A stretch of DNA of 64,000 nucleotides. It comes from Prochlorococcus sp. MIT 1341 (GTDB lineage: Bacteria; Cyanobacteriota; Cyanobacteriia; PCC-6307; Cyanobiaceae). The translations under genes were made by a program, and so were the position numbers. The notes under the pieces were generated by a model, which did no database searches, was not told where the DNA came from, and worked only from the letters and a program-made list of their open reading frames with translations. Every line of letters begins with the position of its first letter. The first letter of the stretch is position 1. Of this stretch, positions 44,056 through 64,000 are shown in pieces. The stretch lies in assembly GCF_034092415.1 (NCBI RefSeq), contig NZ_CP139304.1, forward strand, positions 496,001 through 560,000, written 5' to 3'.

Positions 44056-44129
44056 CGGGGCGTGGCGCAGCTTGGTAGCGCGGGTGCTTTGGGAGCACTA
44101 GGTCGCAGGTTCGAATCCTGTCGCCCCGA
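44056..44129 (+). tRNA. trnP: tRNA-Pro(UGG)
   Basis: A 74-nt cloverleaf: acceptor CGGGGCG pairs with CGCCCCG with discriminator A. The D arm is GCGCAGCTTGGTAGCGC, the anticodon loop TTTGGGA gives UGG, and the T arm is CAGGTTCGAATCCTG. No CCA is encoded. Its 3' half is duplicated at 46156-46199, so it is the attachment site of an integrated element, which restores the tRNA 3' end. Confidence 0.96.
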
Positions 44130-44131
44130 CT
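44088..44131 (+). repeat. attL-like direct repeat: 3' half of tRNA-Pro
   Basis: 44 bases, from the anticodon loop through the tRNA 3' end plus two bases, are identical to 46156-46199. Recombination at a tRNA 3' end by a tyrosine integrase leaves exactly this pattern. The enclosed element is 2068 bp from repeat start to repeat start. Confidence 0.92.
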
Positions 44132-45964: not shown

Positions 45965-46155
45965 ATTCTTTAAATGAGAACTTGGTAAATCATTCGACAA
46001 CTAACTATTGCTTTGCAAATTTCTATCTATTGAACTATTCAGAGTGCCCAAAAGGTATCCAAAATATCTCCTGATGTGTGCACATGCCACCTTGTAGATC
46101 CTCAAAATATTGGTATGACTCAACCCCCGAGTTGTACTAATACCTTTCCGGATGT

Positions 46156-46199
46156 TTTGGGAGCACTAGGTCGCAGGTTCGAATCCTGTCGCCCCGACT
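46156..46199 (+). repeat. attR-like direct repeat of the tRNA-Pro 3' half
   Basis: An exact 44-base copy of 44088-44131. The tRNA 5' half is missing here, so this is not a second tRNA but the right junction of the integrated element. Confidence 0.92.
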
Positions 46200-46500
46200 G
46201 GTTTTTTGGAGATCTCGAATTGGGATTGGGCCCTCATTGGGCCCTCCTGAACGATTAGTTCTGAGTTCTATTGAGTCTGTCACGAGGTTTTGAGGAAGAA
46301 GAAGATTAGACACTGCAGATGGTGTTATTGCCCGATTAAAAAACTAAAAAAATCTCTATAGTTCTTTTAATCCAGTTGGGTGCCCAGGTTAGTCCTGCTA
46401 AACCAACCTCCCATTTGGGAGTCGGACTGCCAGCAAAAGGCCTCGAAATCTTTTGTTTTTGGTGGATTGATGAGCGGGTTCTGTTGTTGCCTTGGGCTCT
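46200..46500. other. Intergenic region right of the junction
   Basis: 301 bases without an ORF I can support. It contains a repeated GGGCCC (46229-46234 and 46240-46245) that could fold as a hairpin, and G/C-rich pairs near 46390-46440 (GGTTAG...CTAAACC) suggesting another structure. No tRNA could be built from it. Confidence 0.4.
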
Positions 46501-48846: not shown

Positions 48847-49941
48847 TTATAGATGATTGGTCTCTAAAAGGTCAGAGGCCGTTATGGCATACCAAGCTTG
48901 AAATGCTTGATGATCTAGATCATCATCGGTATAGCCGAGTCTGGCTCCAAAATGCATTACTAGATAGTCATATAGCCTTATAAAAAAGTTTGGAATAATT
49001 CTGATTGCTTGATATTGATCAACCCCAATATCATCTAGTATACAAAGTGTATTCGAAACTAATTGTCCATAGACAAAAGCTAGGGGAGTTGTTTTTAATT
49101 TGTCTATCATTCCACCCCAATGTATAAAGAGCATTAAATGAGTTGACAGCCAAAGAAATCTCGTATCCCAATCATATTGGATAATTGTCTCAGGTAAACA
49201 GCTCATATCTATCTTTGTGTCTCTATAAGCCTCTTCATAGGCATCTGACCAATTATTAATTTTATCTATTAAATCATTAGAGATCACCTCTTGATTCAAT
49301 AGTTCTGAGTGAGATTTAACAAAACTGGGTTGTTTCGTTATGTATGATTCGTAATTAAACTGTTTATTTTTCTTTGTCCTTGCAGAAAACATACCTTCTA
49401 TCGATTGCTCCCAATATTTCACCCAGCATTCATTTAAACCAAATGGATGTTCTTCACCTATAGGATTAATTTGATTCAATAAAAAGATAAGGTGGTCATA
49501 CAATAGCTGGCTCTTGCCTTTTATTATGGCTTCTAAATCAATATTAAATTGGTTCGTCAAGCTTCTTTCAAAATAAAGAAGCATTGCATAATGAGAGCAA
49601 AGATTAAGGTCATTGACATTACCATTATACTTTTCTTTTAATGAGAGTAAATAATGATTACTACAATTACGTGTAAACATATAACAATGAATCTCATTGT
49701 TATCAGAGTCTTTACTATTACCGAGGACCTGTAGATCCCGATGATCATCTACAAACATTAATTGGTTGTATCCTTTTAGAATATCAATAACTATTTGACC
49801 AGTTAATCTAGGGAATTTCCCTTCAGAGTCTTTAGATATATCTTCACCTGACTTTAGTTGATTAAAACGATAAAGCATTATTTTCTTTGAAACATCATTA
49901 AAGATTCCTTCAGCATATTCATTAAATTTAGAATTAGACAC
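48847..49941 (-). CDS. Unrecognised protein, 364 aa
   Basis: A soluble protein rich in aromatic and acidic residues, likely helical: examples are LCSHYAMLLYFERSL, WDTRFLWLSTHLMLFIHWGG and HFGARLGYTDDDLDHQAFQ. I see no Walker motif, catalytic triad or signal peptide. It starts with GTG at 49941. The same two-box element as its neighbours lies upstream (49968-49994), with exactly 26 bases between the second box and the start. That places it in the putative regulon with the ATPase, protease and sigma-like genes. Confidence 0.75.
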   Translation of the reverse strand: MSNSKFNEYAEGIFNDVSKKIMLYRFNQLKSGEDISKDSEGKFPRLTGQIVIDILKGYNQLMFVDDHRDLQVLGNSKDSDNNEIHCYMFTRNCSNHYLLSLKEKYNGNVNDLNLCSHYAMLLYFERSLTNQFNIDLEAIIKGKSQLLYDHLIFLLNQINPIGEEHPFGLNECWVKYWEQSIEGMFSARTKKNKQFNYESYITKQPSFVKSHSELLNQEVISNDLIDKINNWSDAYEEAYRDTKIDMSCLPETIIQYDWDTRFLWLSTHLMLFIHWGGMIDKLKTTPLAFVYGQLVSNTLCILDDIGVDQYQAIRIIPNFFIRLYDYLVMHFGARLGYTDDDLDHQAFQAWYAITASDLLETNHL

Positions 49942-49967: not shown

Positions 49968-49994
49968 TAGTTCTAGAGTGTCTTAACTGATTCC
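49968..49994 (-). promoter_or_regulatory. Two-box promoter-like element, copy A
   Basis: On the minus strand: GGAATCA, 13 bases, AGAACTA, then 26 bases to the start of the 364-aa gene. Copies B to F share both boxes and spacing. Confidence 0.7.
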
Positions 49995-50083: not shown

Positions 50084-51157
50084 CTAAAGATTAGTTAGCT
50101 CTATTTCCGAAAGATGGAAATCTTGAGAGGTTAATCTCATAAGTTCTTCTTTACTTCTTGAAACTTTTTGCATTAACCTAAATGCTTGTTTTTTGATGGC
50201 AAGGTCTAAAAGGTTACGCATAGATCTTGCATTACCATTATTCTCTTTTTTGTTTGCCATATGTATCTTTATAATTTGATCTATTATAGGTTTAGAATCT
50301 TTACTAAGTATATAACCACTTTGGAATGCTTTTTTAATCAGGATTTTTAAAAGTTCATCTTCTGTATAGTTAGGGAAGGATATATAAGTACTAAATCGAC
50401 TCTTTAAGCCTGGATTACTTTTTAGAAAGCTCTCCATTAAATTTGGATACCCAGCAACTATTACTATAAGATCATCTCGAAAATCTTCCATGAACTTAAG
50501 CAATATTTCAATAGCTTCTTCACCATAAGGGTCTGACTGGTTATCTCCCCAGCTTTTTGAAAGGCTATACGCTTCATCGATGAAAAGGACACCACCGGAT
50601 GCTCTCTCAAGAAGCTTATAGGTTTTGTGTGTAGTTTGACCTATATATCGGCCAATCAGTTTGTTTCGATCTACTTCTACAAAATGCCCTTTGGATAAAA
50701 CGCTTAGTGATTTATATAGTTTACCTATAATTCTTGCAACAGTTGTCTTTCCTGTTCCAGGAGGACCCTGAAAAACCATATGCCTAGAGTTACTATCATT
50801 GGAGAGTCCATGAAATCTCCGTTCTTGTATGATCTTAGTTAAAGAAATGATTTCGTGTACTTCTTTTTTTATAGAAGATAAACCTATTAGATTTTCTAAT
50901 TCATTAAGGCTTTGTTCTAATAATGGCTGTGCTATTACGTATTCAGTACCATCGGTATTTGATTCATTTTGATTAGATATAAGCAAACCATTAGCTGTTA
51001 AAAGATTATTATAAAATGTAGTAAAGTCAGGGACGGCATTCCCATATCTATCGTATTTAATATAACCACAAGACCTAACAATATTAGCTTTAGATGTTTT
51101 CCCAAACTCAATAAACTTGTTAATCAACTCTTGTCCAACCAAGCATGATTGTTGCAT
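50084..51157 (-). CDS. AbrB-like domain fused to a CbbX/SpoVK-type AAA ATPase
   Basis: 357 residues. Residues 1-60 (LVGQELINKFIEFGKTSK, then IVRSCGY and DFTTFYNNLLTANGL) resemble the N-terminal domain of cyanobacterial AbrB-like regulators. After a linker, residues 85-320 form an AAA module of the CbbX family: Walker A QGPPGTGKTT (about 130-139), Walker B GVLFIDEAYSL (about 189-199) and sensor/Arg-finger region NPGLKSRFSTYISFPNY. CbbX relatives remodel Rubisco or protein assemblies, and the partner here is unknown. Element B lies 26 bases upstream. An AbrB-like/AAA fusion is unusual. Confidence 0.82.
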   Translation of the reverse strand: MQQSCLVGQELINKFIEFGKTSKANIVRSCGYIKYDRYGNAVPDFTTFYNNLLTANGLLISNQNESNTDGTEYVIAQPLLEQSLNELENLIGLSSIKKEVHEIISLTKIIQERRFHGLSNDSNSRHMVFQGPPGTGKTTVARIIGKLYKSLSVLSKGHFVEVDRNKLIGRYIGQTTHKTYKLLERASGGVLFIDEAYSLSKSWGDNQSDPYGEEAIEILLKFMEDFRDDLIVIVAGYPNLMESFLKSNPGLKSRFSTYISFPNYTEDELLKILIKKAFQSGYILSKDSKPIIDQIIKIHMANKKENNGNARSMRNLLDLAIKKQAFRLMQKVSRSKEELMRLTSQDFHLSEIELTNL

Positions 51158-51183
51158 TAGATTCCTATGAGCTATTTGTTATT

Positions 51184-51210
51184 AGTTCTGAGTTTGAAAA
51201 CCTGATTCCA
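51184..51210 (-). promoter_or_regulatory. Two-box promoter-like element, copy B
   Basis: On the minus strand: GGAATCA, 13 bases, AGAACTA. 26 bases separate it from the start of the AbrB-AAA gene, and AGGA sits just before that ATG. Confidence 0.72.
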
Positions 51211-51239: not shown

Positions 51240-51497
51240 TCAGTCATCACCACAAAGGTGTAATAGGACCTCAATCTGTCTTCTTTGCACTTGGATTGTT
51301 TCCAATATGCCATTAAGAACAGAGATTTGATCCAAGAGCTCAGATATCCTATCTGCTCTCTCCACATCTAAATCCCATCGCCACAGCCCCTCCCAATGCG
51401 ATTGGAGCTCTTTTAATTCTAATTCTAACTCATACAATGTTGCTTGGGTTTGATTCTCAGAAACTTTAAGTTCAGTTAGTTCATCATAATAATTCAT
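51240..51497 (-). CDS. Coiled-coil protein, 85 aa
   Basis: Two long helices with heptad character: LKVSENQTQATLYELELELK and ISELLDQISVLNGILETIQV. A Trp-rich joint, HWEGLWRWDLDVERA, separates them. It probably forms a helical hairpin or oligomer. Its ATG overlaps the stop of the YbjN-like gene by one base (TAATG), so the two are coupled and may bind each other. Confidence 0.65.
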   Translation of the reverse strand: MNYYDELTELKVSENQTQATLYELELELKELQSHWEGLWRWDLDVERADRISELLDQISVLNGILETIQVQRRQIEVLLHLCGDD

Positions 51498-51961
51498 TAA
51501 ATAGGAGATAGGTTTAGTTCTAACTGTTTGAATTTATATTTTCTTGAGATGCTTTTTTCTCTATAGTTTAAAGCAGCTTCTGTTACAAGTTCCTCGAAGC
51601 AATGATGGAGAAAGTGTATATAGCTAAAGCTAAATTCTTCAGAGGGTTGGATGAACTTTTCTGCAGAAAGAGTTAGATCATTAGAGCCATCGGGATTAGT
51701 ATATTCATCGTAGTTAACTTTTAATTGTGGAAGATTTCTATTTAAAAAAGAAACTAATTCATCAATCTCTTGCTTAGTAAAATTTCTTGCTGGAATATAA
51801 GAAGAAAATTTCAAAACAGATTTCTTTAGATCTACCCAAACGCTCGAAATGGCATCCTTCATTACTAAGCACATGTCATCATCGACAATCTCAGATTGAA
51901 TTTGTGGGGACGACTCAAAAATACAATGAATCGTTGCTGCATTTAAATCTTTCAATAACAT
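51497..51961 (-). CDS. YbjN-like (type III chaperone-like fold) protein
   Basis: 154 residues from ATG 51961. The pattern AISSVWVDLKKSVLKFSSYI, then IDELVSFLNRNLPQLKVNYD and a long C-terminal helix with HHCFEELVTEAALNY, resembles the YbjN/secretion-chaperone fold. That fold binds partners and is common beside AAA ATPases and conflict proteins. A longer frame starts at 51994, but that would leave only 7 bases after element C; the internal ATG leaves 40, nearer the 26-33 of the other copies. Family call tentative. Confidence 0.55.
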   Translation of the reverse strand: MLLKDLNAATIHCIFESSPQIQSEIVDDDMCLVMKDAISSVWVDLKKSVLKFSSYIPARNFTKQEIDELVSFLNRNLPQLKVNYDEYTNPDGSNDLTLSAEKFIQPSEEFSFSYIHFLHHCFEELVTEAALNYREKSISRKYKFKQLELNLSPI

Positions 51962-52001
51962 GGCTTTAAGTCTGCATAAGAGGCGTATGTACATTTCCTT
52001 A

Positions 52002-52028
52002 TAGTTCTTGAATTGTTAGTCCGATTCC
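52002..52028 (-). promoter_or_regulatory. Two-box promoter-like element, copy C
   Basis: On the minus strand: GGAATCG, 13 bases, AGAACTA. It precedes the YbjN-like and coiled-coil pair and argues for the start at 51961 rather than 51994. Confidence 0.65.
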
Positions 52029-52057: not shown

Positions 52058-53041
52058 TTAAGAAATAATTGAGCAAGTTCCATTATTATGATAATCAATA
52101 AAATAATGAACTTTGCTGATATCTCCACCAAGCCAAGCATTAGAATGATATTTGGTATCCAAAAAATAATCGTTTTCTCTCCTTCTATAGAAATAACTAT
52201 GACGTCTCTGTGTAAATCTTATCGTTGCATAGTCTAGGGAATCATTAAATATTGTCTTATATAAAGCAACTATTTCGCTGGCATCTTCTATTGGTATATA
52301 TTCATATTTAAAAGGTAGTTCCCATAGATTTGGATGTAATATAAAGTCTTCAAATATATCGAATGAGGCAAAACAACCACCCATAAGTTTATATATTTCA
52401 ATTAGATTTGGTCTTCTTCTATGTTTCTCTGAAAATGATATTGAACAACTGATTAGTTTTTCGATCTTGAACCGAAAGATTGGTTTGACAATATTTAGGT
52501 ACTCTTCCCAACTTATTGCTTGAATAATAGACCCTACAATTGTCCCGAAGGCATATTTAGAGAAAGTATTGATCTTATCAGTATTAAAATTTGAGCATGA
52601 CAACTTCATTGATCTATCGAATTTATTAATACTTCTGTCCCTAAAATAGCTTTTAAAGCCTAAAATTGCACGCTCGAGTCCGATCATACCTTCTTGCATT
52701 AAGTTTATTCTACTTTCCTTGTTATCTTTAGTATAATAAAGCGCTATTTTCTCAACCAAATAAATATGATTATCCAGCAGAAACTTTTTTAAATTCAACA
52801 TCTTTTTATAATGTTTTTGAAAATTTTTAACTCCAAATGCTTCCGTTATAAAATCTATATTGATATCATCAGAACCTTCTAATTTAAGCAAAAGTAAACT
52901 TGTATATATCTCAGAAACTTCTTTTAAGGAAGGGTATAGATTCCTTCTGAATTTAATATCTTCTATTAATTCTAATATTGTTGATAATTCTATTACATCC
53001 TTTTCTCCAATGATTTCTTTGTTTGCTTTAAGTATTTCCAT
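52058..53041 (-). CDS. Divergent sigma-70-like protein
   Basis: 327 residues. Residues 91-177 follow sigma region 2: LVEKIALYYTKDNKES, INLMQEGMIGLERAILGF (the conserved L-x-Q-E-G-x-x-G-L-x-x-A) and FSKYAFGTIVGSIIQAI in place of the usual F-S-T-Y-A-x-W-W-I-R-x-A-I. An insert of about 25 residues separates the two halves. Residues 190-222 resemble region 3 (SFSEKHRRRPNLIEIYKLMGG). Region 4 is not obvious. Promoter-melting Trp residues are missing, so it may be a specialised or defective sigma. Element D precedes it. Confidence 0.65.
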   Translation of the reverse strand: MEILKANKEIIGEKDVIELSTILELIEDIKFRRNLYPSLKEVSEIYTSLLLLKLEGSDDINIDFITEAFGVKNFQKHYKKMLNLKKFLLDNHIYLVEKIALYYTKDNKESRINLMQEGMIGLERAILGFKSYFRDRSINKFDRSMKLSCSNFNTDKINTFSKYAFGTIVGSIIQAISWEEYLNIVKPIFRFKIEKLISCSISFSEKHRRRPNLIEIYKLMGGCFASFDIFEDFILHPNLWELPFKYEYIPIEDASEIVALYKTIFNDSLDYATIRFTQRRHSYFYRRRENDYFLDTKYHSNAWLGGDISKVHYFIDYHNNGTCSIIS

Positions 53042-53070: not shown

Positions 53071-53096
53071 TAGTTCTGATTCCAAAAAACGATTCC
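53071..53096 (-). promoter_or_regulatory. Two-box promoter-like element, copy D
   Basis: On the minus strand: GGAATCG, 12 bases, AGAACTA, then 29 bases to the sigma-like start. A second GGAATCA directly abuts the AGAACTA box, so this copy has two possible first boxes. Confidence 0.62.
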
Positions 53097-53110: not shown

Positions 53111-54283
53111 TTATAAAGGCAGTCTGCAAACTTCCCCAAATGGGACTTCCTCACTATCCAAGCCACCAGCATTAATGATCCATAGAACTGGTAGCTCAGG
53201 AGTTTTCTCTGGGTAATATCCCCACCCATCAGTTAGATAGACACAAACTGCTTGTTTTTCATTTGGAAAGTCTTTCTCTATTGCTTGAAAAAAAGGGATA
53301 AAATTTGTTCCACCGCCACCTTTGGGCTTAGGAACTTTTTCTATGGATTCCAACTTATAGGGCCCATAACAATCGTGATCGGCATACCAAAGGTGACACT
53401 CAAGATGTGTATAGCCTGAAAGAATACCTTTGAGCTCACCAAGGAATTGACTGAGTTCCTCTTTACCAATTGACCCACTTGTATCAATACAACAAAAGAC
53501 CATTACCTTCTCACCTTCAAGCTGTTCCAGGTAGAGACCTCTATACAAAAAACGTCTATCAAATCCACTGAAGTCTGTAGGTGTACGAATTAAGTGCCTA
53601 GACAACCGAGTCTTCCAATCAATCTGTGGTTTTGATACCTCATCTAAATGTCTAGTAAAACTTGTAGGTAATCTGTGCCTTTCGTCGGCATCAATCAAAG
53701 TTAATGATTCTTGGATTGCTCCAGTCCAATATTCCTTGATCTCCGATTGCGCCTCTAGGTCCTCTAAATCATCCTCGGTATAAGAAGTCTCTATATCCTT
53801 TGAAGGATCTAACAAGTCTGAAAGTAATCGATTTTGTTTGTCTTCAAGAGATTTGGGATCTTTCAAGAGGATGGTATAAATTTCTTCAACACTTAAATGC
53901 TCTAACTGCTCATCACATATTGCATCCTTAGGCAGCTCGACATTCGATTCCTTAGCAACCATTCCGTTAACAACTATATCTGCAGCTATGTTGAAAATCT
54001 TTTGATCTCTAACTCCTCGCCTCATTGGATGTAGCAAGGCTGCATGTAATAGCTCATGTAAGAACACAGCATCTCTTTCTTCTTTGGGCAGATTCCCATA
54101 CCTCTCAGGATGAAAAAAAATTACCCTGCCATTGGTTGCTGCAACATTTACTTTTCTTGTGAAAATAGCTTTTGCATATAGTGCAAGAGCCGCAAAGAAG
54201 GGCGAATATCTACGCAATCTCAGTCTTGAAGCAACAATTAAATCTTCAAGTTGCTTTGCCTTAGAACTATTGTTGATGATCAT
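53111..54283 (-). CDS. vWA protein with metallopeptidase-like N-terminal domain (DUF2201 type)
   Basis: 390 residues. The N-terminal domain carries a zinc-peptidase-like HELLH at residues 76-80 (FLHELLHAALLHPMRRG). The C-terminal vWA-like domain has an intact metal-ion adhesion motif D267-x-S269-x-S271 (CIDTSGSIG), and GGGTNFIPFF supplies the Thr ligand. This two-domain family is typically encoded beside a MoxR ATPase, as here, where the genes overlap by four bases. MoxR/vWA pairs act as chaperone-like activators. The HExxH may be catalytic or only structural. Confidence 0.88.
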   Translation of the reverse strand: MIINNSSKAKQLEDLIVASRLRLRRYSPFFAALALYAKAIFTRKVNVAATNGRVIFFHPERYGNLPKEERDAVFLHELLHAALLHPMRRGVRDQKIFNIAADIVVNGMVAKESNVELPKDAICDEQLEHLSVEEIYTILLKDPKSLEDKQNRLLSDLLDPSKDIETSYTEDDLEDLEAQSEIKEYWTGAIQESLTLIDADERHRLPTSFTRHLDEVSKPQIDWKTRLSRHLIRTPTDFSGFDRRFLYRGLYLEQLEGEKVMVFCCIDTSGSIGKEELSQFLGELKGILSGYTHLECHLWYADHDCYGPYKLESIEKVPKPKGGGGTNFIPFFQAIEKDFPNEKQAVCVYLTDGWGYYPEKTPELPVLWIINAGGLDSEEVPFGEVCRLPL

Positions 54284-55302
54284 GTGGATAGAATTTCTTC
54301 GTATTGCTTGATGTACATTCCAATTGATTCGTCATTCACAAGAACACCGGCAAGATCTACTAACTTCTTACGCTTCTTGAATTGATTAATAACATCGGTT
54401 GCATAAAGTTGAATCCACTCTGACGTGGTTTTGTGAATCAACCAATGAAAAGCTTCTTTCACCTGCAAAGGTGTTTTGGAGCGAGAAGTTAGACCAGTAG
54501 CAGTTGCCCAACGTCTAGACACCTCTTTAGGGAAGGCAATCTTTTCTCCTTTGCCATTTAAAATTGCATTGAGATCAGGAAGCTTCTTATAAATTTTTAG
54601 GTAAGTCTTAAATTCTGATGCTGCTGCATCTCCTATTGCAGGGTTAACAGGAAGACTTGCCTTGAACAAGCTGCTAGCCATTTCCCATGTTCTTGGAGAT
54701 GGCCAGGCTGACTCTTCATATTGAAGTTGATGCAATAACTTTGGGCGATACCCTAAAAACGCGATGACCTCTTCTGAGAAGTTGTGTTCTAAGGCATATT
54801 TTCGAAAGCACTCGAAATTAACTTCAACACATAGATGTAGAAACCTATTAGCAAGGGGAGCAGGCATATCGAATACAGAAGCATGGTCTTCTTTTCGATT
54901 GCCTGCTGCAAAGATAAACCAACCATCAGGAAGCTTATAACTACCTACTTGTCGATCAAGAATTAATTGCTGAGCAACACCTTGCATGGCAGGTGGAGCC
55001 ATGTTGAGCTCATCCAGAAAAAGAATACCTTTCCCTTTTGTTGGTAAGAACTCAGGCGGATACCATTTGGATATACCAAGCTCGTTGTCGGTTGATGGGG
55101 CTTCTGGCACTGGAAGACCCCTTAGATCTGTAGGAGCTAGCTGACTTAAGCGAATGTCGATGAACCCCATCTTTGCTTGGCGTGCAACTGAAGCAACAAT
55201 TGAAGACTTCCCAATTCCTGGAGCCCCCCAGATCATTGTGCTGATAGGTATTGAATTTTGAATTAACTTGGTGAGATAGTCGATTAATTCACTAGGAGAC
55301 AT
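54280..55302 (-). CDS. MoxR-family AAA+ ATPase
   Basis: 340 residues. Walker A IWGAPGIGKSS is at about residues 24-34, Walker B GILFLDELN at about 92-100, sensor 1 FAAGNRKED, then the arginine-finger region PAPLANRFLHL. The N-terminus begins directly with the AAA module, as in MoxR proteins. It overlaps the vWA gene (ATGA) and is probably its partner. It is divergent from the TPR-CHAT gene with 145 bases between starts. Element F is upstream. Confidence 0.9.
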   Translation of the reverse strand: MSPSELIDYLTKLIQNSIPISTMIWGAPGIGKSSIVASVARQAKMGFIDIRLSQLAPTDLRGLPVPEAPSTDNELGISKWYPPEFLPTKGKGILFLDELNMAPPAMQGVAQQLILDRQVGSYKLPDGWFIFAAGNRKEDHASVFDMPAPLANRFLHLCVEVNFECFRKYALEHNFSEEVIAFLGYRPKLLHQLQYEESAWPSPRTWEMASSLFKASLPVNPAIGDAAASEFKTYLKIYKKLPDLNAILNGKGEKIAFPKEVSRRWATATGLTSRSKTPLQVKEAFHWLIHKTTSEWIQLYATDVINQFKKRKKLVDLAGVLVNDESIGMYIKQYEEILST

Positions 55303-55335: not shown

Positions 55336-55362
55336 TAGTTCCATCTTTCGTAAAGTGATTCC
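55336..55362 (-). promoter_or_regulatory. Two-box promoter-like element, copy F
   Basis: On the minus strand: GGAATCA, 13 bases, GGAACTA (one change from the other copies), then 33 bases to the MoxR start. It lies in the divergent interval with the TPR-CHAT gene, which has no such element on its own strand. Confidence 0.65.
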
Positions 55363-55447: not shown

Positions 55448-58216
55448 ATGAGAAAGCAATTCATAACAGCAACTATATTTCTAATCGTCACTTCCGCGGC
55501 TTTATTTTCCGGACGCTTTTTTAGATTAGTTTTGGATAATTATGCCAGATTAAGTTCTTCAGAAGAAAGCTCATTACAATCTACAGATAAGTCTTATCAA
55601 GCACTCTTACCACTTTTAGAAAAGGCAAAAAATGCAAAAAACAATGAAGAGGCTCTTCAGATCTTTTATCAAATTCTTTCCAAAATTGAAAGTCTAGATA
55701 CAACGTCTAAACAAAAAAGTATTTATGCAGCTGCTACATTAGAAAAGATTGGAGAATATCACAAAGCATTAGGGGATTTTGTTCTTGCAGAAAAGTCATA
55801 CAGACAAGCTTTAGATCTTGAAAGAGATCTATATGGAAAGAATTCTCCCGAGCTAATAACTAATTATATTGACTTGTCAGCACTATATAAATCAGCTAAT
55901 CAATACGATTTAGCAATTGCTTCAAATCTAATTGCACTGGAGATTATGTACAAATATTGGGGAAAGGAAGGTCCACTGACTTATAAAGTAACTAAAGATT
56001 TAGCAGAACTTCTTGAAATCAAGGGAGATTTAGCTCAGGCTGAGAAGTTCTATGCTATTGCATTGAATGGGCTAAATAAACTAGATAAAAAGGATTTAGA
56101 TAAAGTTGAGGAGTCTATCCTTGATAAAATTGAATATGGGCTTTCTAAAATATATATCCAACAAGGAAAATTTCAAACTGCAGAGGTGACATTGAAGGAT
56201 TTATTAGAACAACTAAATCCAGAGCATAAAGAAAGAAATACAGTTTTAAGGACTTTATCTACAGCTCTAACTCTTCAAGGAAAAGATCAAGAAGCGGAAG
56301 AAATTTTGCTTAGACTTTTGAAGTCAAGTCAAGAAACCTTAGGAAATGATCACCCTGCAACATTACTGAATCTTGCCACTTTAGCTGGGCACTACGATAG
56401 TCTTGAACTATTTGCAAAAGCACTTCCTTATTACAAACAACTACTAAAATATGATCTTTCTACCTTAGAAGATTATCTTCAACCCAGCTTATTAAATAAT
56501 CTGGGATATAATTTTCTAGCCAATGGTTTATACTCGCCTGCTGAAAAAGCATTTCAGAGCTCGATAAAACTAAATGATATCTTGCATGGTAAAGAGAATA
56601 AAAATAACATTAAACCAATTAATAGTTTGGCTTTATTATATAAACTACAAGACAAAGAAGTTGATGCAATTGATTTTGCAAATAAAGGAATTAAAATTTT
56701 ATTTAAATTCATTCAATCCGAATCCCAAAATCTTTCCACTTCAGAACGTCAAAGTTTTCTAGTTTCTTACGCAGGTCCATATATGATGCCATTTGGTTGG
56801 GCATTAGATGCTAAGTCTTATAATGAAATTGCTTTATTCTCACGCTTAAATCATTATGGATTGTTGCAAGAATTGGAGAATAGACAGTCTAAATTAGAGA
56901 AGTTAAGTGACGAAGATATCCAATTAAAAAAAGACATCTCACTAATAACTAATCAGATTACATCTCCTAATCTTTTAGCGAAGGAACGTAGAGAGTTAGA
57001 GATAAAAAGAATCGCTCTAGAGAAAATATTATATACCTCACTTCCAGAATTAGAGCCAAGAATAGTGGAGGTAAAACAGATCGCACAAGTCTTACCCAAA
57101 AATGCTGTATTAATTGAATTTCAGAAATATGATATTCGCTGGAAAAACCCATTTAAGGAACTTGAATCAAAAGAGGGGTATTTATCTTTAATACTTAAAC
57201 CAGACGGTAATATTGATTTGGTGGATCTAGGACCAGCATCCGCTATAGAAAGTAAAATCAATGAAGCTTTATTTGCTACAACACAAGGAAAGGATTCCGA
57301 ATATGTTCTTTGGGATGAAGTTACTGATCTTGTTATTAAACCCCTTCAAGATGCAATAGCAGGCAGTCAGAGGTTATTTATTACCGCAGATGCAGATCTG
57401 AACAAAATTCCATTTGCTCTCTTGAGTTCTGTAAATGGTGAAGGATTCTTAGGTGATGATCTAAAAATTCATCCTTTATCTACCGGAAGAGAATTGCTAA
57501 ATCTCAATAAAATATCAGAATTAACAAATAATCAATCACTTGTACTTGCAAATCCCAATTTTGGTAAAAAGGTTAGATATAAAATTACTCAACTTGAGCA
57601 GACGCAAAAAGAAGGAGAAATAGTTGCTAATTTACTAAAAGCCAAATTATTAGTGAGCGAGGACGCTACAGAATCTGTTATTCAAAATTTGAAGCAACCA
57701 CCTAAAGTTCTTCATATAGCTAGTCATGCCTATTATGATTCACCACTATTTAGTAAATACAACAATCCATTACTAAGGAGTGGGATTGTTTTAGCTGGTG
57801 TAAACCAACTTGATGTTAAGAGTAGGCATGATGGCTTCCTAAATGCGTTAGAAGTCTCAACCCTAGATTGGAATGGAATTGAGCTTGTAACGATCTCTGG
57901 ATGTGAATCTGGTCGAGGTGATTTCCGTTTTGGAGAAGGAGTATATGGTCTAAAACGATCTATCGCAGTTGCAGGAGCTCGATCCAGTCTATTGTCATTA
58001 TGGGAAGTTGATGATGAGGCAACTTCAGTATTTATGCAAACTTTTTACAAGAGGTTGAGTAATGGAGCCAGTAAGGCAGATGCCTTAGCTTTAACACAAA
58101 GAGACTTTAGAGATGGGCGAATTACAAGTTCTAATCCAATAATATTTGACTGGAAAAAACCATACTATTGGGCAGCATTTCAACTTAGTGGTGATTGGAG
58201 GCCTATTAATAAATAA
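55448..58216 (+). CDS. Membrane-anchored TPR-CHAT protease-like protein
   Basis: 922 residues. An N-terminal membrane helix (ITATIFLIVTSAALFSG) is followed by about eight TPR or TPR-like repeats (residues 55-430), a helical linker and a C-terminal CHAT domain (about 600-920). The caspase-type dyad is intact: His760 in HIASHAY and Cys819 in TISGCESGRG. CHAT proteins are cysteine proteases of the caspase-separase clan, used as effectors in bacterial conflict systems, and TPR-CHAT proteins are common in cyanobacteria. Its position opposite MoxR-vWA suggests it is the effector of this locus. Confidence 0.9.
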   Translation: MRKQFITATIFLIVTSAALFSGRFFRLVLDNYARLSSSEESSLQSTDKSYQALLPLLEKAKNAKNNEEALQIFYQILSKIESLDTTSKQKSIYAAATLEKIGEYHKALGDFVLAEKSYRQALDLERDLYGKNSPELITNYIDLSALYKSANQYDLAIASNLIALEIMYKYWGKEGPLTYKVTKDLAELLEIKGDLAQAEKFYAIALNGLNKLDKKDLDKVEESILDKIEYGLSKIYIQQGKFQTAEVTLKDLLEQLNPEHKERNTVLRTLSTALTLQGKDQEAEEILLRLLKSSQETLGNDHPATLLNLATLAGHYDSLELFAKALPYYKQLLKYDLSTLEDYLQPSLLNNLGYNFLANGLYSPAEKAFQSSIKLNDILHGKENKNNIKPINSLALLYKLQDKEVDAIDFANKGIKILFKFIQSESQNLSTSERQSFLVSYAGPYMMPFGWALDAKSYNEIALFSRLNHYGLLQELENRQSKLEKLSDEDIQLKKDISLITNQITSPNLLAKERRELEIKRIALEKILYTSLPELEPRIVEVKQIAQVLPKNAVLIEFQKYDIRWKNPFKELESKEGYLSLILKPDGNIDLVDLGPASAIESKINEALFATTQGKDSEYVLWDEVTDLVIKPLQDAIAGSQRLFITADADLNKIPFALLSSVNGEGFLGDDLKIHPLSTGRELLNLNKISELTNNQSLVLANPNFGKKVRYKITQLEQTQKEGEIVANLLKAKLLVSEDATESVIQNLKQPPKVLHIASHAYYDSPLFSKYNNPLLRSGIVLAGVNQLDVKSRHDGFLNALEVSTLDWNGIELVTISGCESGRGDFRFGEGVYGLKRSIAVAGARSSLLSLWEVDDEATSVFMQTFYKRLSNGASKADALALTQRDFRDGRITSSNPIIFDWKKPYYWAAFQLSGDWRPINK

Positions 58217-58254: not shown

Positions 58255-58935
58255 TCAAGTCGCTCCCCAAACAACACTTGTAAATACAACGAGGAATAGA
58301 CTTACCCAAGCTAATACTTGAGAGCCTCTAGCTGAGGCTAAATCTTCAATTAATAGTGTCTTAGATTGTGGAAGATATTTTTCAAACGGAAACTCAATCT
58401 TAAAAAGTTCTTTAGCAGCTCCATATCTTGAATTAAGTCTTGGATATTTGCTGCGGGCCCAGTTGTTAGAGACCGTATGACCAGGAGTAAAGAGCCCAGT
58501 AAAAAACATAATTCCCAATCCAAAGCCACTTATCCAACTAATACTTCCTGAGAGTATTGCCCACCCTATAAGGCCTAAAATAAAGAATGGGTTTGCGAAC
58601 AAGAAATAATGGACAGGTATCAATTTGGAAATCATCTCTTTATTAACTATCGTCATTAAAAATCCGAGCAATAAAGATATATAGATCGAAGTGAAGACCG
58701 GCTTAATACCTACTGGATATATAGAAAATAATAGGAAGGAAAGAATAAAGGTAACCGTAGGAAGGGTATACCATATCTCACAAATATTTTTTTGCTTGTC
58801 ATCTAAATAAGGATTGTAAGGGGAGTAAAGCTGTGACTCTGTATATGCTCTGACATCTAATGCTTCTTTCTTTATCCCTCCTTTAGGAAGTGCCATTCCT
58901 GTCTCATCAACGTTGTATTTAGGGAAATTAATCAT
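58255..58935 (-). CDS. Polytopic membrane protein, 226 aa
   Basis: About five or six hydrophobic segments (WYTLPTVTFILSFLLFSIYP, PVFTSIYISLLLGFLMTIV, FFILGLIGWAIL and others). A polar N-terminus of 50 residues and a helical segment near 170-205 precede the last helix. No transporter motif is visible. Its ATG overlaps the upstream DUF1822-like gene by four bases, so it is the last gene of a coupled three-gene operon. The stop is 38 bases from the convergent CHAT gene stop. Confidence 0.72.
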   Translation of the reverse strand: MINFPKYNVDETGMALPKGGIKKEALDVRAYTESQLYSPYNPYLDDKQKNICEIWYTLPTVTFILSFLLFSIYPVGIKPVFTSIYISLLLGFLMTIVNKEMISKLIPVHYFLFANPFFILGLIGWAILSGSISWISGFGLGIMFFTGLFTPGHTVSNNWARSKYPRLNSRYGAAKELFKIEFPFEKYLPQSKTLLIEDLASARGSQVLAWVSLFLVVFTSVVWGAT

Positions 58936-60137
58936 TCCGAACAGGTGTTGATATTCGAAAGCTTTTGCTTGCCAAAATTAAGAGTTTTTATTTTTGGAGC
59001 ATCTTCTGAGAATAATAAAGCCAAAGCTAGATTGCTATCTTGCTTTAATTTTCGGTTAATAGTCTTTACCCATAATGACTCATTCTTTCCAAGAGATGAA
59101 ATTATCGGTGTAATTTTTAGTAGAGACTGTTTAGTAGTTAACCTCAACTTCAGATTTACTTGCTCGCCAATAGAAGTGCCTTTTGGTCTGAGCCTTAAAG
59201 AATATTCTTGACCACTTTCAATTGGTTCAATAGGCCATGAGATAGGTGCCTGAATACTTTTTCCTGGCGAGGCAATTTCACTCCAAGCAATTTGTCCATT
59301 TCTAAAAATACTTATTTCACTTAAAGGGGTTAGGGAGAAAATCAATGGCTGATCAATAGAGATTTCTGCTGTTGGTTCCGCTTTGCTTTCGGTGTCTGAG
59401 ATGGCAGGTGATAACAAACAAATTGCTTGTTGAGTTGAGGACAAGGCTGATCTTGAAGAGGAGACTTTGATTGAGTTAATAGGTAACGAGGCCAAATTTA
59501 GTGAAAGTCTTGGCCTGAAAATCTCCGGCCCAACTATTAATGCTCCTCCCAAAAGTGCAGCTATTGAAAGGGTAGCTTTAATCTTTTTAGAGATTTCTGA
59601 CCCTAATAACGAAGATTCTTGGTTAACTGCTAAACCGTTTTGCGAAATAGCACTGAGCTCGAGGAATCGAACAAATCTCAGCAGTCGATCAACACCTCCT
59701 GAAAACTTCTCGATCGGAATCGTGATGTTCTGTTTCTCGGTTATTGAACTTGAGACGAGTGCCACAAACTCTTCTGCTGTAAGAGCTCCAGGAAAGTGCA
59801 CCACATTATTTTCATCATCAACTTGGGCAATAAGTAGAAGCTGAGGTGCCGATCCTTTTTTAAACCATGGCTTGAGAGGGATAGTGATTTGATCAGATGT
59901 AAAGCCTGTAGCTACGACTTGAACAGCAAAATGATTCAGCTTTAAGAGCTGATTAAGATTCTTAGGGCTAAAGCCAGTGTTTAAAGGCAAATCTAAATTT
60001 CTAATTTCGAGCGTCTTCTTGAGAGCAGCGATAGCGAGTTCTTTTAGGGTTGCCCCTTCTGCAAGAGGCAATGCCACAGCACCTTCTGGGATAGGAACAG
60101 CTTCCATAGGTTGATTATTGGAAGGGCTGTCAATCAT
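58932..60137 (-). CDS. DUF1822-like protein
   Basis: 401 residues. The N-terminal part (VALPLAEGATLKELAIAALK, then LLIAQVDDENNVVHFPGALT and AEEFVAL) resembles cyanobacterial DUF1822 proteins, which I recall next to sigma-70-like genes. A single membrane helix (TLSIAALLGGALIVG, about 189-203) divides it from a beta-rich C-terminal domain with SLRLRPKGTSIGEQVNLKLR. It is probably a membrane-bound sensor or anti-sigma-like partner. Both neighbours overlap it by four bases. The family call is from memory of pattern. Confidence 0.5.
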   Translation of the reverse strand: MIDSPSNNQPMEAVPIPEGAVALPLAEGATLKELAIAALKKTLEIRNLDLPLNTGFSPKNLNQLLKLNHFAVQVVATGFTSDQITIPLKPWFKKGSAPQLLLIAQVDDENNVVHFPGALTAEEFVALVSSSITEKQNITIPIEKFSGGVDRLLRFVRFLELSAISQNGLAVNQESSLLGSEISKKIKATLSIAALLGGALIVGPEIFRPRLSLNLASLPINSIKVSSSRSALSSTQQAICLLSPAISDTESKAEPTAEISIDQPLIFSLTPLSEISIFRNGQIAWSEIASPGKSIQAPISWPIEPIESGQEYSLRLRPKGTSIGEQVNLKLRLTTKQSLLKITPIISSLGKNESLWVKTINRKLKQDSNLALALLFSEDAPKIKTLNFGKQKLSNINTCSE

Positions 60138-61423
60138 TGTTTCAAGGCGGTAGCGACTGATTGCCGCAATAAAGAGACACCACTTTCTTGTTTAGAAGTA
60201 GTCAAATAAATAGTCAATTGCTCAATCATGCGATCAAGTCCTACAGGATCGACTCGGATAGAGATGAAATCAGTTCTTCTTATTAGTTCTTCAGCTGATT
60301 CTTGGGCAATGATTTCGGCAAGCATTTTTTCTTTGAGCAACTTACTCACCCAACCCTGCTTGTGATCACAACGAAGAGCGATATCTCTTTGTCCTAAGCC
60401 TTCGGAGTAAAGCTGCCAGGCTAATTTCCGATTAGGGTCTTTTTCCCATCTAGACCGATCTGAATTGATTTCATGACTGACTGTTTTAAAAGCTGTCCTG
60501 GTGAGTGACTGGAGAATTTGGTTTATAAGCTCTTCACTAAATTCTGAGTTTTGATCAGAGCTGGCTTGAGGGATGTCATCTTTGAATTCTTCAACTCCGT
60601 AATTGGCCCCTGAAAGATATTTACGAATAGCATCGTCGATTAAAACTAGATTCTTGAGGTCGGTTTGAGTAGGCGTTAACGAGACAAGAAACTTTTTATC
60701 TGGTTCCCAGCCAGAATTTCTACCCGTGCGTTTCTTATAAATCTGTTTGGCAATCTTATATTCAACTAAATATGAGGCATGAAGCTTCTCGACTCCTTCT
60801 AGTTGCATTGAACCACGACCGTATCTCATCCAAGCCTGAGAAACCCTGGTAGGACTGCTATCTGCAATCAAGGCCCATTTGCTGATTAAAAGCAAGCCGG
60901 AATTACGTAAGCAAGACTTCAGTTCAGCATTGGACTGAACTTTGTTTTTTGCCCATGTTGAGAGATTTGATAAGGACGGGTCAAAGCTATAAATAACCTC
61001 AGCTCCAAAGGGCCTGATCTTTTTTCCTGGAAATAAGGCAAGAGAGTTCCAACAAAATGGTTTGCGTATGGAATCCAGGCTTTTCTCATCATTGTTTTTT
61101 GGGATTCTTAAAAAGTTCTCTCCGCAATCATCAAGAACACAAGCCAAAATTTCCAAGAGATCTAGTTCATACTCATTACGATTGTGATTAAAGATTTGTT
61201 TTACCTTGCCTACTATTGGATGACTTACTCGACATCTCAGGCATAGCAGGGCATCTGAAAGATACTCATTGTCTTGACAATGTTGCCAAAGTCTTCTGTC
61301 TGTCTCCTCTGACTCAGTCTCTGTATTGGTTTTGAGCGCTAGAGAAGCTCCTTCAAAATTCTTTAGACCAACACCTTGGTTAAAGGAATCAATTATGCAT
61401 AATTCGGTGTAGAGATTGGCCAA
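60134..61423 (-). CDS. Divergent cyanobacterial sigma-70-like regulator
   Basis: 429 residues. The N-terminal half follows a pattern I associate with atypical cyanobacterial sigma-like proteins found beside DUF1822 genes: PFCWNSLALFP, FDPSLSNLSTWAKNKVQS, LRNSGLLLISKWALIADSSP. Residues 338-366 form a helix-turn-helix like sigma region 4 (GQRDIALRCDHKQGWVSKLL). Coupling to the DUF1822-like gene fits a sigma/anti-sigma arrangement. No copy of the two-box element with the standard spacing lies upstream; a lone AGAACTA (minus strand) is at 61471-61477. Confidence 0.55.
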   Translation of the reverse strand: MANLYTELCIIDSFNQGVGLKNFEGASLALKTNTETESEETDRRLWQHCQDNEYLSDALLCLRCRVSHPIVGKVKQIFNHNRNEYELDLLEILACVLDDCGENFLRIPKNNDEKSLDSIRKPFCWNSLALFPGKKIRPFGAEVIYSFDPSLSNLSTWAKNKVQSNAELKSCLRNSGLLLISKWALIADSSPTRVSQAWMRYGRGSMQLEGVEKLHASYLVEYKIAKQIYKKRTGRNSGWEPDKKFLVSLTPTQTDLKNLVLIDDAIRKYLSGANYGVEEFKDDIPQASSDQNSEFSEELINQILQSLTRTAFKTVSHEINSDRSRWEKDPNRKLAWQLYSEGLGQRDIALRCDHKQGWVSKLLKEKMLAEIIAQESAEELIRRTDFISIRVDPVGLDRMIEQLTIYLTTSKQESGVSLLRQSVATALKQ

Positions 61424-61531: not shown

Positions 61532-61804
61532 TTAGGAACAATCATTATATATGATTTCTATAAGTATTTTCCTTACAATAGCTGAGAAAGGTAGTCGAAG
61601 CTTACCTGCCAAGTTAGATATTTTCCTTTCTAATTCAAGCGGCAGAGCAATCCTAATTAGTTTTTCGCAAGAGATATATCGAAAGTCTTCTTCAGGAAAG
61701 ATAGCGATGTTCATTGCATCTATCTTATCAATCATTAGTTGTGATATTGTCTCATCTAAATTGCATCTATTTCCAGTAAGCGTGTGGAAAGATTCTAATT
61801 TCAT
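61532..61804 (-). CDS. Ribbon-helix-helix-like protein, 90 aa
   Basis: The C-terminus KLIRIALPLELERKISNLAG plus LPFSAIVRKILIEII is a clear ribbon-helix-helix pattern (beta strand, two helices), as in Arc/CopG regulators. The N-terminus (MKLESFHTLTGNRCNLDETI) is unassigned. A longer frame from 61882 adds 26 atypical residues, so the ATG at 61804 is preferred. It may regulate the cluster. No toxin gene is adjacent. Confidence 0.55.
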   Translation of the reverse strand: MKLESFHTLTGNRCNLDETISQLMIDKIDAMNIAIFPEEDFRYISCEKLIRIALPLELERKISNLAGKLRLPFSAIVRKILIEIIYNDCS

Positions 61805-61932
61805 AATCACATTGTAAGGTAAGACAACATAAAGCAAGGAATAAGAATAATTTTCTGGCAATGGAAATGAATACATGTACAATCAATTCTATTTGACATA
61901 ATAATTTATTATCAATAGACTGATAAATAAGA

Positions 61933-62313
61933 TTAACTTTTAAAAGTTCTCGATAGATCTGCTGCCAACATAGATTTATTTTGTGGATCTTTTTTCCATG
62001 CGGGTTTTGGGCAACTTGCATATGATTTTTTAATAACAACAGAGTTATTTGTGTAAAGTAAAATATTTTCACTTATTTTTCTTGGAACCATTTTATTAGT
62101 AAATGTTGCTCCTGAAAGAAAGTCCAAGGTTCTTTGGACTAGATCCGGAGACATCAATGTGAGATTCAATATTAGAGTTTTACCTTCCAGGATTGCATCA
62201 CCAATTCGTGGGATCTCATCAAAACTTGTCGGTTCCATAAGGCTGATCTGAGGAATTGATGGAGAAGTCTGATGAAACTTCTTTTGGATTGTTCTAATCA
62301 AGGGATTAGTCAT
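61933..62313 (-). CDS. SepF-like protein
   Basis: 126 residues. The block FDEIPRIGDAILEGKTLILN, LTLMSPDLVQRTLDFLSGAT, then ISENILLYTNNSVVI matches the SepF domain (the R-x-x-D-F-x-x-G core is intact). SepF (Cdv2 in cyanobacteria) ties FtsZ to the membrane and is normally a core gene with an N-terminal amphipathic helix. Here MTNPLIRTIQKKFHQ could serve as that helix. An accessory copy in a putative conflict cluster suggests an effect on division. Element E precedes it by 26 bases. Confidence 0.7.
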   Translation of the reverse strand: MTNPLIRTIQKKFHQTSPSIPQISLMEPTSFDEIPRIGDAILEGKTLILNLTLMSPDLVQRTLDFLSGATFTNKMVPRKISENILLYTNNSVVIKKSYASCPKPAWKKDPQNKSMLAADLSRTFKS

Positions 62314-62339: not shown

Positions 62340-62366
62340 TAGTTCTGAGGGCCTGAAAGTGATTCC
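62340..62366 (-). promoter_or_regulatory. Two-box promoter-like element, copy E
   Basis: On the minus strand: GGAATCA, 13 bases, AGAACTA, then exactly 26 bases to the SepF-like start. It is 10 kb from copy D, so the element spans the whole cluster. Confidence 0.7.
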
Positions 62367-62391: not shown

Positions 62392-64000
62392 TTATTTTTT
62401 ATAGAGTTTGATTGATTGACAAATAGCATCTGACCTTTTCTGATAGCAAGAGCGCTTTTTGTAATACCCCATAGGATTTTCTTTAATCGACATTGAGTAA
62501 TTATCTATAGCATCATCATATTTGCCGAGCTTAAATAGGCAATCGCCCATCTTTTCATAAATTTCAAATAAGTTGAGGTACTTACTTGAGATATCACTAT
62601 ACGCAGTAATAGCTTGATCATATTTCCCTTTGTCAAAAAGGATATCTCCTTTTCTCTCTAGAATAGAGTCCTTAGCTCTAGGATTAAGCTTTATAGCCTT
62701 ATTACAAATAATAAGCGCATTATTATTTTGGTCAAACTGACATAAAATATCTATTATTTTCATAATATTCTCAAACTCAGAATTTAGCTTAAGTGATGTT
62801 TTTAATTCTTTAAGGGATTTATCTATTATTTGCAAATTTAAATATGAAGCTCCTTTCTTTAGATATTTTTCAGACAAGAATATATTGTAATATGACCAAT
62901 TAGGTTTCTTCATCTCCAGACCCTTTGAATAGTATTTAACAGCCTTCTTGAACTCACCTAAACAAAAATAATTATCAGCTTTAAGTAGATAGCTGCTTTT
63001 AAGCATTCTATTACTTTTAATATTTTTAATCAACTTATTTATAAATTGTATGGACTGACTATATCTCTTTAATTCAAATAATAATCCAGCTCTAGCCCAT
63101 AAAGCTGATGTATTATTAGGTTTAAAACTCATATATTTTGATAATAATTCAATTGCTAATTCTAATTCATTTTTCTCCCACAATAGTCTGCAAGCTACCC
63201 TGTAGCCAACAAGTTTCTTTGGAAAGATTTTCATTAACTTACAACATACATAAAGTCTAACTTCTTCAGGCTGAAAATAGTCAACATCAGGAATAACCTC
63301 AAAAGAGGAATCCGTATCTTCCAAGTCAATTGAGTCCATAAAATCAGAAATAGAACCTTCATAATCTCCAAGTTTATATTTGCAAATTCCTCGCCAATAG
63401 AAATTCATATCGTCTTCAGAATCCATTTCTATTGCTTTTGTATAAGCATCAATTGCTCCTTTGAAATCTTCATGTTCATCAAGTATATTACCTAAGTATG
63501 AATACGTAGACCCATATTTGACTCCTATAGACATTGCCTTGTTAACATCCTCTTTAACAAGATCTTTATTTTTAAGACTTACATGAATGCTTGCTCTATT
63601 TATATAGCAAAAATGTTTGTCAGGATTAATATCAACTGCTTTATTGGCATCTGTTAAGGCGCCTGGGTAATCATTTAGGCTAATCAGTAAGCGACTTCTA
63701 AATAGATATAAATAAACAGCTCTGTAATCCAATGCAAATTCAATTGCTTTGGTTACATAGTAATAGGCTCTAAGATTATCCCCAGTATGGGATGTACAGA
63801 TACCTCTAAGGAAATAATCATAATAATAAATTGATCCCATATCAATCACTTCATCAAAAGCCTTTATAGCTCCTTCATAATCATCTAATATATATTTAAA
63901 ATATCCAATATAACGGTAAAATGTTGCCCAATCATGATGAATTTCAATAGCTTTATTATAATCATTTAGACTCTGTATAAAATCCTCTTTAGCGTATCGA
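62392..64000 (-). CDS. Large TPR protein, 5' end beyond the window
   Basis: At least 536 codons of tandem TPR repeats. Typical A/B helix pairs recur about every 34 residues (GDYEGSISDFMDSIDLEDTD, GKYDDAIDNYSMSIKENPMG, FKGAIDAYTKAIEMDSEDDM). The frame is open to base 64000 (it continues upstream of the ATG at 63849 without a stop), so the start lies outside. No other domain is visible in this part. It ends in a basic C-terminus. TPRs mediate protein binding, perhaps to the CHAT or ATPase proteins of the cluster. Confidence 0.88.
   Translation of the reverse strand, partial: RYAKEDFIQSLNDYNKAIEIHHDWATFYRYIGYFKYILDDYEGAIKAFDEVIDMGSIYYYDYFLRGICTSHTGDNLRAYYYVTKAIEFALDYRAVYLYLFRSRLLISLNDYPGALTDANKAVDINPDKHFCYINRASIHVSLKNKDLVKEDVNKAMSIGVKYGSTYSYLGNILDEHEDFKGAIDAYTKAIEMDSEDDMNFYWRGICKYKLGDYEGSISDFMDSIDLEDTDSSFEVIPDVDYFQPEEVRLYVCCKLMKIFPKKLVGYRVACRLLWEKNELELAIELLSKYMSFKPNNTSALWARAGLLFELKRYSQSIQFINKLIKNIKSNRMLKSSYLLKADNYFCLGEFKKAVKYYSKGLEMKKPNWSYYNIFLSEKYLKKGASYLNLQIIDKSLKELKTSLKLNSEFENIMKIIDILCQFDQNNNALIICNKAIKLNPRAKDSILERKGDILFDKGKYDQAITAYSDISSKYLNLFEIYEKMGDCLFKLGKYDDAIDNYSMSIKENPMGYYKKRSCYQKRSDAICQSIKLYKK

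Follow-up and report, generated by a model that had tools for sequence, protein, structure and literature searches.

Within a stretch of 64,000 nucleotides of the Prochlorococcus sp. MIT 1341 genome (hereafter, the window), a gene for a sigma-like protein, P0001, lies behind a two-block DNA element that recurs in front of its neighbours. A sequence-only reading had proposed that P0001 is a self-regulated, atypical sigma factor which reads this element and thereby explains the regulon. The question is, therefore, which protein reads the element, and whether P0001 is the switch of the regulon or one of its targets. The gene and its own copy of the element, which lies where that reading had placed it, are as follows:

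52058-53041, minus strand: flagged gene P0001, 327 amino acids, with ATG at 53041 and stop at 52058; the frame of 327 codons is intact.
53071-53096, minus strand: element D, GGAATC-N14-GAACTA, 29 nt before the start codon of P0001.

P0001 descends from a group-2 sigma factor. In an alignment with group-2 sigmas, regions 1.2, 2.1, 2.2, an insert, 2.3/2.4, and 3.0/3.1 follow one another in that order. Comparison with 12 ordinary group-2 sigmas (hhalign) gave E 1e-7 (94%), and the group-2 HMM scored P0001 at 21.3 bits, the top score among 2000 shuffles being 8.8. Matches to domain models are weak, with 17.5 bits for Pfam Sigma70_r2 (cut-off 24) and E 6.8e-5 for TIGR02997 cyanoRpoD, the best sigma model. 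Hence, the patterns of regions 2 and 3 recognised in the earlier reading were real, and so was the insert that splits region 2, which measures ~23 residues in the alignment and lies between 2.2 and 2.3.

While regions 1.2, 2.1, 2.2, and 3 align in order with those of cyanobacterial group-2 sigma-70 factors, P0001 differs from them by the region-2 insert, the loss of the melting and −10 residues, the absence of region 4, and an unrelated C-terminus. The core-binding surface of 2.1/2.2 is present, partly changed (INLMQEGMIGLERA vs LDLIQEGTLGLVRG), and the hydrophobic core is kept, whereas the DNA-contact positions have changed. In 2.3/2.4, KFSTYAYWWIRQGITRAL of the host's own sigmas corresponds to TFSKYAFGTIVGSIIQAI in P0001; FGTIVGSIIQA stands in place of YWWIRQGITRA, with both tryptophans as well as R, Q, T, and R replaced, which confirms the predicted loss of the melting tryptophans. 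Neither Pfam nor NCBIfam detects a region-4 helix-turn-helix, again in agreement with the earlier description, and residues 223-327 give no convincing alignment to sigmas and no confident model. Structure prediction against sigma factors, which had been suggested as a check, did return sigma matches, but since sigma factors were part of the alignment behind the model, these are partly circular and do not count as independent evidence, and confidence is limited to approximately residues 11-130.

The element itself is not a chance pattern. GGAATC-N13..15-AGAACTA occurs in eight exact copies in the 1.94-Mb single-contig genome, all on the minus strand and all within 17.7 kb (genome positions 545968-563684), while the reversed pattern has no match in the whole genome. 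These genome-wide counts are pattern searches; matching with three mismatches proved too loose and was swamped by chance matches. Two further copies, one base off, sit among the eight exact ones, and the window holds five exact copies against 0.02 expected. The regulon on which the sequence-only reading was built is, thus, genuine. Apart from element D, the copies are located as follows:

49968-49994, minus strand: element before 48847-49941.
51183-51209, minus strand: element before the AAA ATPase gene.
52002-52028, minus strand: element before 51497-51994.
55336-55362, minus strand: element before the MoxR-like gene, GGAATC-N14-GGAACTA.
62340-62366, minus strand: element before the SepF gene.
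64305-64331, 64677-64703, 66225-66251, and 67658-67684: elements beyond the window.

Ten units follow these elements; among them are the AAA ATPase, MoxR with DUF2201/VWA, SepF, TPR proteins, and the flagged gene. The two blocks of the element keep a near-fixed spacing, are always oriented towards the gene start, and lack the symmetry of an operator. Strict elements around p429 genes (p429 is introduced below) mostly stand ~25-50 nt from the start codon. The consensus TTTGGAATCACC...CAGAAC[A/G/T]AGAAGGAG is valid from 31% to 69% GC.

All of the approximately ten putative promoters lie in what seems to be a mobile island, and none was found in the rest of the genome. Direct repeats of the 3' half of tRNA-Pro, which are of the kind left by integrating elements, flank the island at 44056-44130, 46149-46206, and 75461-75520, the last beyond the window. 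In the closest comparable genome, G054, the genes that flank the island here sit 4.4 kb apart without it, and G054 has a p429 island of its own at another site, flanked by copies of this tRNA-Pro end. Beyond the window, 67696-67971 (L024:7696-7971) encodes a 91-aa integrase-like fragment without a Pfam match. Over 54 aa, this fragment is 94% identical to part of a 428-aa protein of G054, which by eye resembles a tyrosine recombinase. With the island missing from the site in G054, tRNA-Pro repeats around it, and an integrase-like fragment present, the regulon and a movable DNA segment cover the same ground. In its flanking tRNA-Pro 3'-half repeats and its integrase-like remnant, the island resembles the tycheposons, tRNA-bound mobile elements known from Prochlorococcus; it differs in that no intact integrase was found in it. 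Close to the p429 island of G054, between tRNA-Pro copies, L089:2590-4197 encodes a fusion of phage capsid and prohead protease, which hints at packaging of the element or of a neighbouring satellite.

Besides P0001, the following genes of the island lie in the window:

48847-49941, minus strand: 364-aa protein without a family, the leftmost island gene.
50084-51157, minus strand: SpoVK/CbbX-like AAA ATPase.
51497-51994, minus strand: 165-aa ORF, its start codon only 7 nt after the element.
53111-54283, minus strand: DUF2201 metallopeptidase-like/VWA-like protein.
54280-55302, minus strand: MoxR-like AAA ATPase, one unit with 53111-54283 behind element 55336-55362.
55448-58216, plus strand: TPR-CHAT protease-like protein, a conserved neighbour of p429.
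58255-58935, minus strand: hydrophobic (membrane) protein of 226 aa, encoded at the end of the p429 operon.
58932-60137, minus strand: p401, overlapping the end of p429, with a DUF1822-like N-terminal part, a hydrophobic segment, and a C-terminal domain; a candidate partner or inhibitor of p429.
60134-61423, minus strand: p429, a divergent sigma-70-like protein and the likeliest reader of the element.
61933-62313, minus strand: SepF-like protein, first gene of a probable operon that includes p429.
62392-64000, minus strand: TPR protein of 633 aa, running on to 64293 beyond the window.

For 51497-51994, whose listed start follows the element by just 7 nt, translation probably begins further inside the frame, or else the transcript has no leader. 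The element before SepF probably also serves the small ORF 61532-61882, p429, p401, and the 226-aa gene, since these follow closely on the same strand; as judged from this spacing, p429 would control its own expression. The TPR-CHAT protein matches CHAT at E 6.9e-64, and both the His (IASHA) and the Cys (ISGCESG) of the catalytic dyad are present. In p401, one hydrophobic segment is visible by eye. Its family matches the DUF1822 genes of distant p429 loci (87.6%, E 3.5e-6) in the N-terminal part only, and the C-terminal domain matched no known family.

Two further proteins are shared with other p429 loci. Residues 1-58 of the SpoVK-like ATPase (50084-51157) match the start of small proteins encoded there (L102:1386-1772, with an AbrB-like domain, and L096:3245-3625), so that these proteins have a tag domain in common with the ATPase. 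Beyond the window, 64733-65671 (L024:4733-5671) encodes a stand-alone C-terminal domain of DnaB helicase (E 1.3e-89), which has counterparts of 56-75% identity in three other p429 islands; the gene in G054 overlaps the p429 start.

Across genomes, the element goes with p429. An exact-element scan of 300 family genomes, made without the use of p429, found dense clusters in four genomes only. Homologues of p429 are found in 26 of the 300, and all four cluster genomes are among these (hypergeometric 4.5e-5). Three other neighbourhoods that were compared with this one share CHAT and, whole or in nearby DNA, p429 and p401; P0001 is not among the shared genes. Only p429, p401, and CHAT are common to most loci compared.

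Around p429 genes, the strict element occurs in 84 copies in 24 stretches (421,782 bases, 23 genomes), compared with none in reversed sequence and one in 99 kb of control DNA. A weight-matrix scan found matches in 21 of 23 fetched stretches, with ~0.2 expected in each, the matrix having been trained partly on six of the 23 loci and most of the others lying outside the training set. Genome-wide, the pattern gave 96 hand-counted matches in the 26 p429 genomes (mean 3.7), mostly near p429 where positions were listed; in genomes without p429, matches are few and scattered. The element was not found at the two most distant p429 loci of the family (L107, L108) or at six p429 loci outside it. It is present, usually in several copies, in 20 other genomes that lack P0001, and it tracks p429; therefore, the element belongs with p429, and the claim that the flagged protein explains the regulon is not upheld.

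In most p429 genomes, one copy of the element lies within the last codons of p429 itself, 26-59 nt before the p401 start, where it encodes RNHLLEPEREGD or similar. Such embedded copies were located at L091:5311, L092:9673, L096:9322, L100:10283, and similar loci. In 12 GC-rich genomes, the embedded element uses AAT for Asn (12/12) and GAA for Glu (12/12); outside the element, the frequency of these two codons in those p429 genes is 26%, which puts the chance at about 1e-7 each. As silent codon positions are held fixed, the codon usage points to selection on the DNA, and the 3' end of p429 would, thus, be coding sequence that doubles as a promoter. The embedded copy is lost in the present genome.

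p429 has its own two-block, promoter-like element, and its structure model (pLDDT 86.5) is sigma-like: of its 50 best matches in VIA-align, almost all are sigma factors. Residues 32-175 superimpose on domain 2 of WhiG with 93 aligned residues, an rmsd of 2.4 Å, and Z 7.2, which is moderate, as values of ~7 (<8) lie in the range that the tool calls common for unclear cases. Foldseek gave no significant match for the model, and the p429 profile did not match group-2 sigmas. No Pfam sigma family matched above its cut-off, although the sigma70-ECF model was matched below cut-off by 10 of the 22 p429 members. In the model, helices 330-363 form a candidate for a C-terminal, region-4-like helix-turn-helix; Sigma70_r4_2 appears below cut-off in two members, and other HTH families score alike. 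Based on the structure model and the association with a promoter-like element, p429 is likely a member of the sigma-70 family, likely rather than proven because Z is ~7 and no group-2 profile match was obtained.

P0001, on the other hand, is known from a single sequence. No relative was found in 399 other genomes of the host's taxonomic family, in the genome_contigs, viral_contigs, or phages collections, or as an ORF at any other p429 locus. In 99 relatives, the search yielded nothing beyond ordinary sigma factors and, at marginal E, chance stretches. Matches of P0001 to proteasome chains among PDB sequences were rejected as chance. The comparison of P0001 with the p429 profile gave no match, and a keyword search of the literature gave nothing on sigma proteins without region 4.

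Taken together, we consider it probable that P0001 is a target of an island regulon which is read by p429 and controlled by p401 and CHAT, and that its role, if any, would be that of a modulator which binds core polymerase. p429 would direct RNA polymerase to the GGAATCA-N12..14-GAAC[A/G/T]A promoters of the island genes, which mostly stand ~26-50 nt before the start codon, probably including that of its own operon. p401, the DUF1822-like membrane protein encoded directly after it, would probably keep p429 inactive, and the TPR-CHAT protease would probably free p429 by cleaving p401 or a third protein; this part of the scheme is modelled on Csx29, Csx30, and CASP-sigma (see below). P0001 would be a group-2 sigma descendant that was added late to this one island, a target and not a switch. 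It appears to keep part of the core-docking surface, while every known feature for DNA reading and melting is lost. Once the island is switched on, its likeliest role, if it has any, would be to occupy or modulate core polymerase and not to choose promoters, as the features kept and lost and the partly conserved region 2.2 suggest.

Other readers of the element are conceivable. An ordinary regulator might bind the element, which would then be no sigma promoter; this would fit the presence of at least one small ribbon-helix-helix-like ORF in the island (61532-61882, recognised by eye; no Pfam match). We regard this as improbable, as two near-fixed-spaced blocks that point to the gene start, mostly from 25-50 nt before it, without operator symmetry, are not what such a regulator would predict, and as most loci have only p429, p401, and CHAT in common. 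A two-part sigma factor, with one of P0001 and p429 binding core polymerase and the other reading DNA, has a precedent in Bacillus subtilis, where RsoA, a sigma-like protein without region 4, is the needed partner of the region-4 protein SigO. P0001 resembles RsoA in lacking region 4, p429 has a candidate C-terminal helix-turn-helix in its model, and both belong to one regulon. Nevertheless, p429 appears complete, with a region-2-like domain of its own, and does without P0001 in every other genome searched, so that we hold this arrangement to be very improbable. Least probable of all is the original proposal that P0001 itself is the atypical sigma which reads GGAATC/AGAACTA and drives the regulon. 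Its sigma ancestry, its atypical build, its place inside the regulon, and its own element all stand, but it is missing from the 399 family genomes and from other p429 loci although the element is found there, it lacks region 4, and its 2.3/2.4 carries other residues at the DNA-contact positions.

If p429 is taken as the reader, the fate of P0001 itself can be seen differently. A serious rival, which we rate as a real possibility although not as the expected one, is that the P0001 gene is a group-2 sigma copy in decay, without function, which merely happens to follow an island promoter. Decay would account for the disappearance of region 4 and of every DNA-reading feature, for the lack of any relative in the databases and family genomes searched, and for the low model confidence past residue 130. 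Against it, the frame of 327 codons is intact, a well-formed element precedes it at the usual distance, and 2.1/2.2 and the hydrophobic core were kept while the DNA-contact positions changed. A bolder view, which we consider rather unlikely, makes P0001 a pseudo-sigma, i.e., a former sigma factor turned into a blocker of core polymerase, which the mobile island would deploy to displace the sigmas of the cell while p429 takes over. If true, it would be a cellular counterpart of the transcription takeover by phages. The reading we prefer remains that of a regulon target which modulates core polymerase.

How the island relates to known systems can be seen from the distant homologues of p429, which are found in 50 of 145 genomes of the class, the host's family included. 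They lie directly before DUF1822 genes (PF08852, E 2e-35 to 8e-27), and in the distant locus examined in full, a CHASE2-CHAT gene comes after DUF1822. Kaur et al. (2021; PMC8195603) described cyanobacterial gene neighbourhoods of ECF sigma, DUF1822, and caspase-like (EACC2, CHASE2) proteins. These agree with the distant loci, where p429 homologues directly precede DUF1822 and CHASE2-CHAT genes, and with the island, where p401 matches DUF1822 N-terminally and the TPR-CHAT gene is close. The p429 loci of the family differ in an extra domain on p401 or its neighbour, and CHASE2 was not seen there; the promoter element, the regulon, and the island do not appear in the available part of that account. 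Our literature search found no paper that names a promoter of sigma-DUF1822-caspase neighbourhoods. Hence, sigma genes beside DUF1822 and caspase-like proteases were already known, and the promoter element is the addition made here. With it, this family has a predicted promoter, its targets can be listed, and a reporter assay can test it directly.

A 2024 survey (PMC11119718) gives one sigma architecture only for 14 Prochlorococcus species. Our results suggest that picocyanobacteria, with their streamlined genomes, possess a further sigma switch which escapes domain searches; p429 stays below the cut-off of every Pfam sigma family.

The closest parallel in control logic is the type III-E CASP/Craspase system, which combines the TPR-CHAT protease Csx29, the sigma inhibitor Csx30, and CASP-sigma, and in which the CASP-sigma motif is repeated within its own locus (PMC10028731). 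The island likewise has a TPR-CHAT protease, a sigma factor, a possible inhibitor, and a sigma motif repeated in the locus; it differs in that no CRISPR effector (Cas7-11/gRAMP) is among the island proteins searched. By analogy with Csx30, p401 may inhibit p429 and be cleaved. With a TPR-CHAT protease adjoining a sigma factor, and copies of the sigma motif across the locus, the p429/TPR-CHAT locus could be a CRISPR-free version of the CASP logic.
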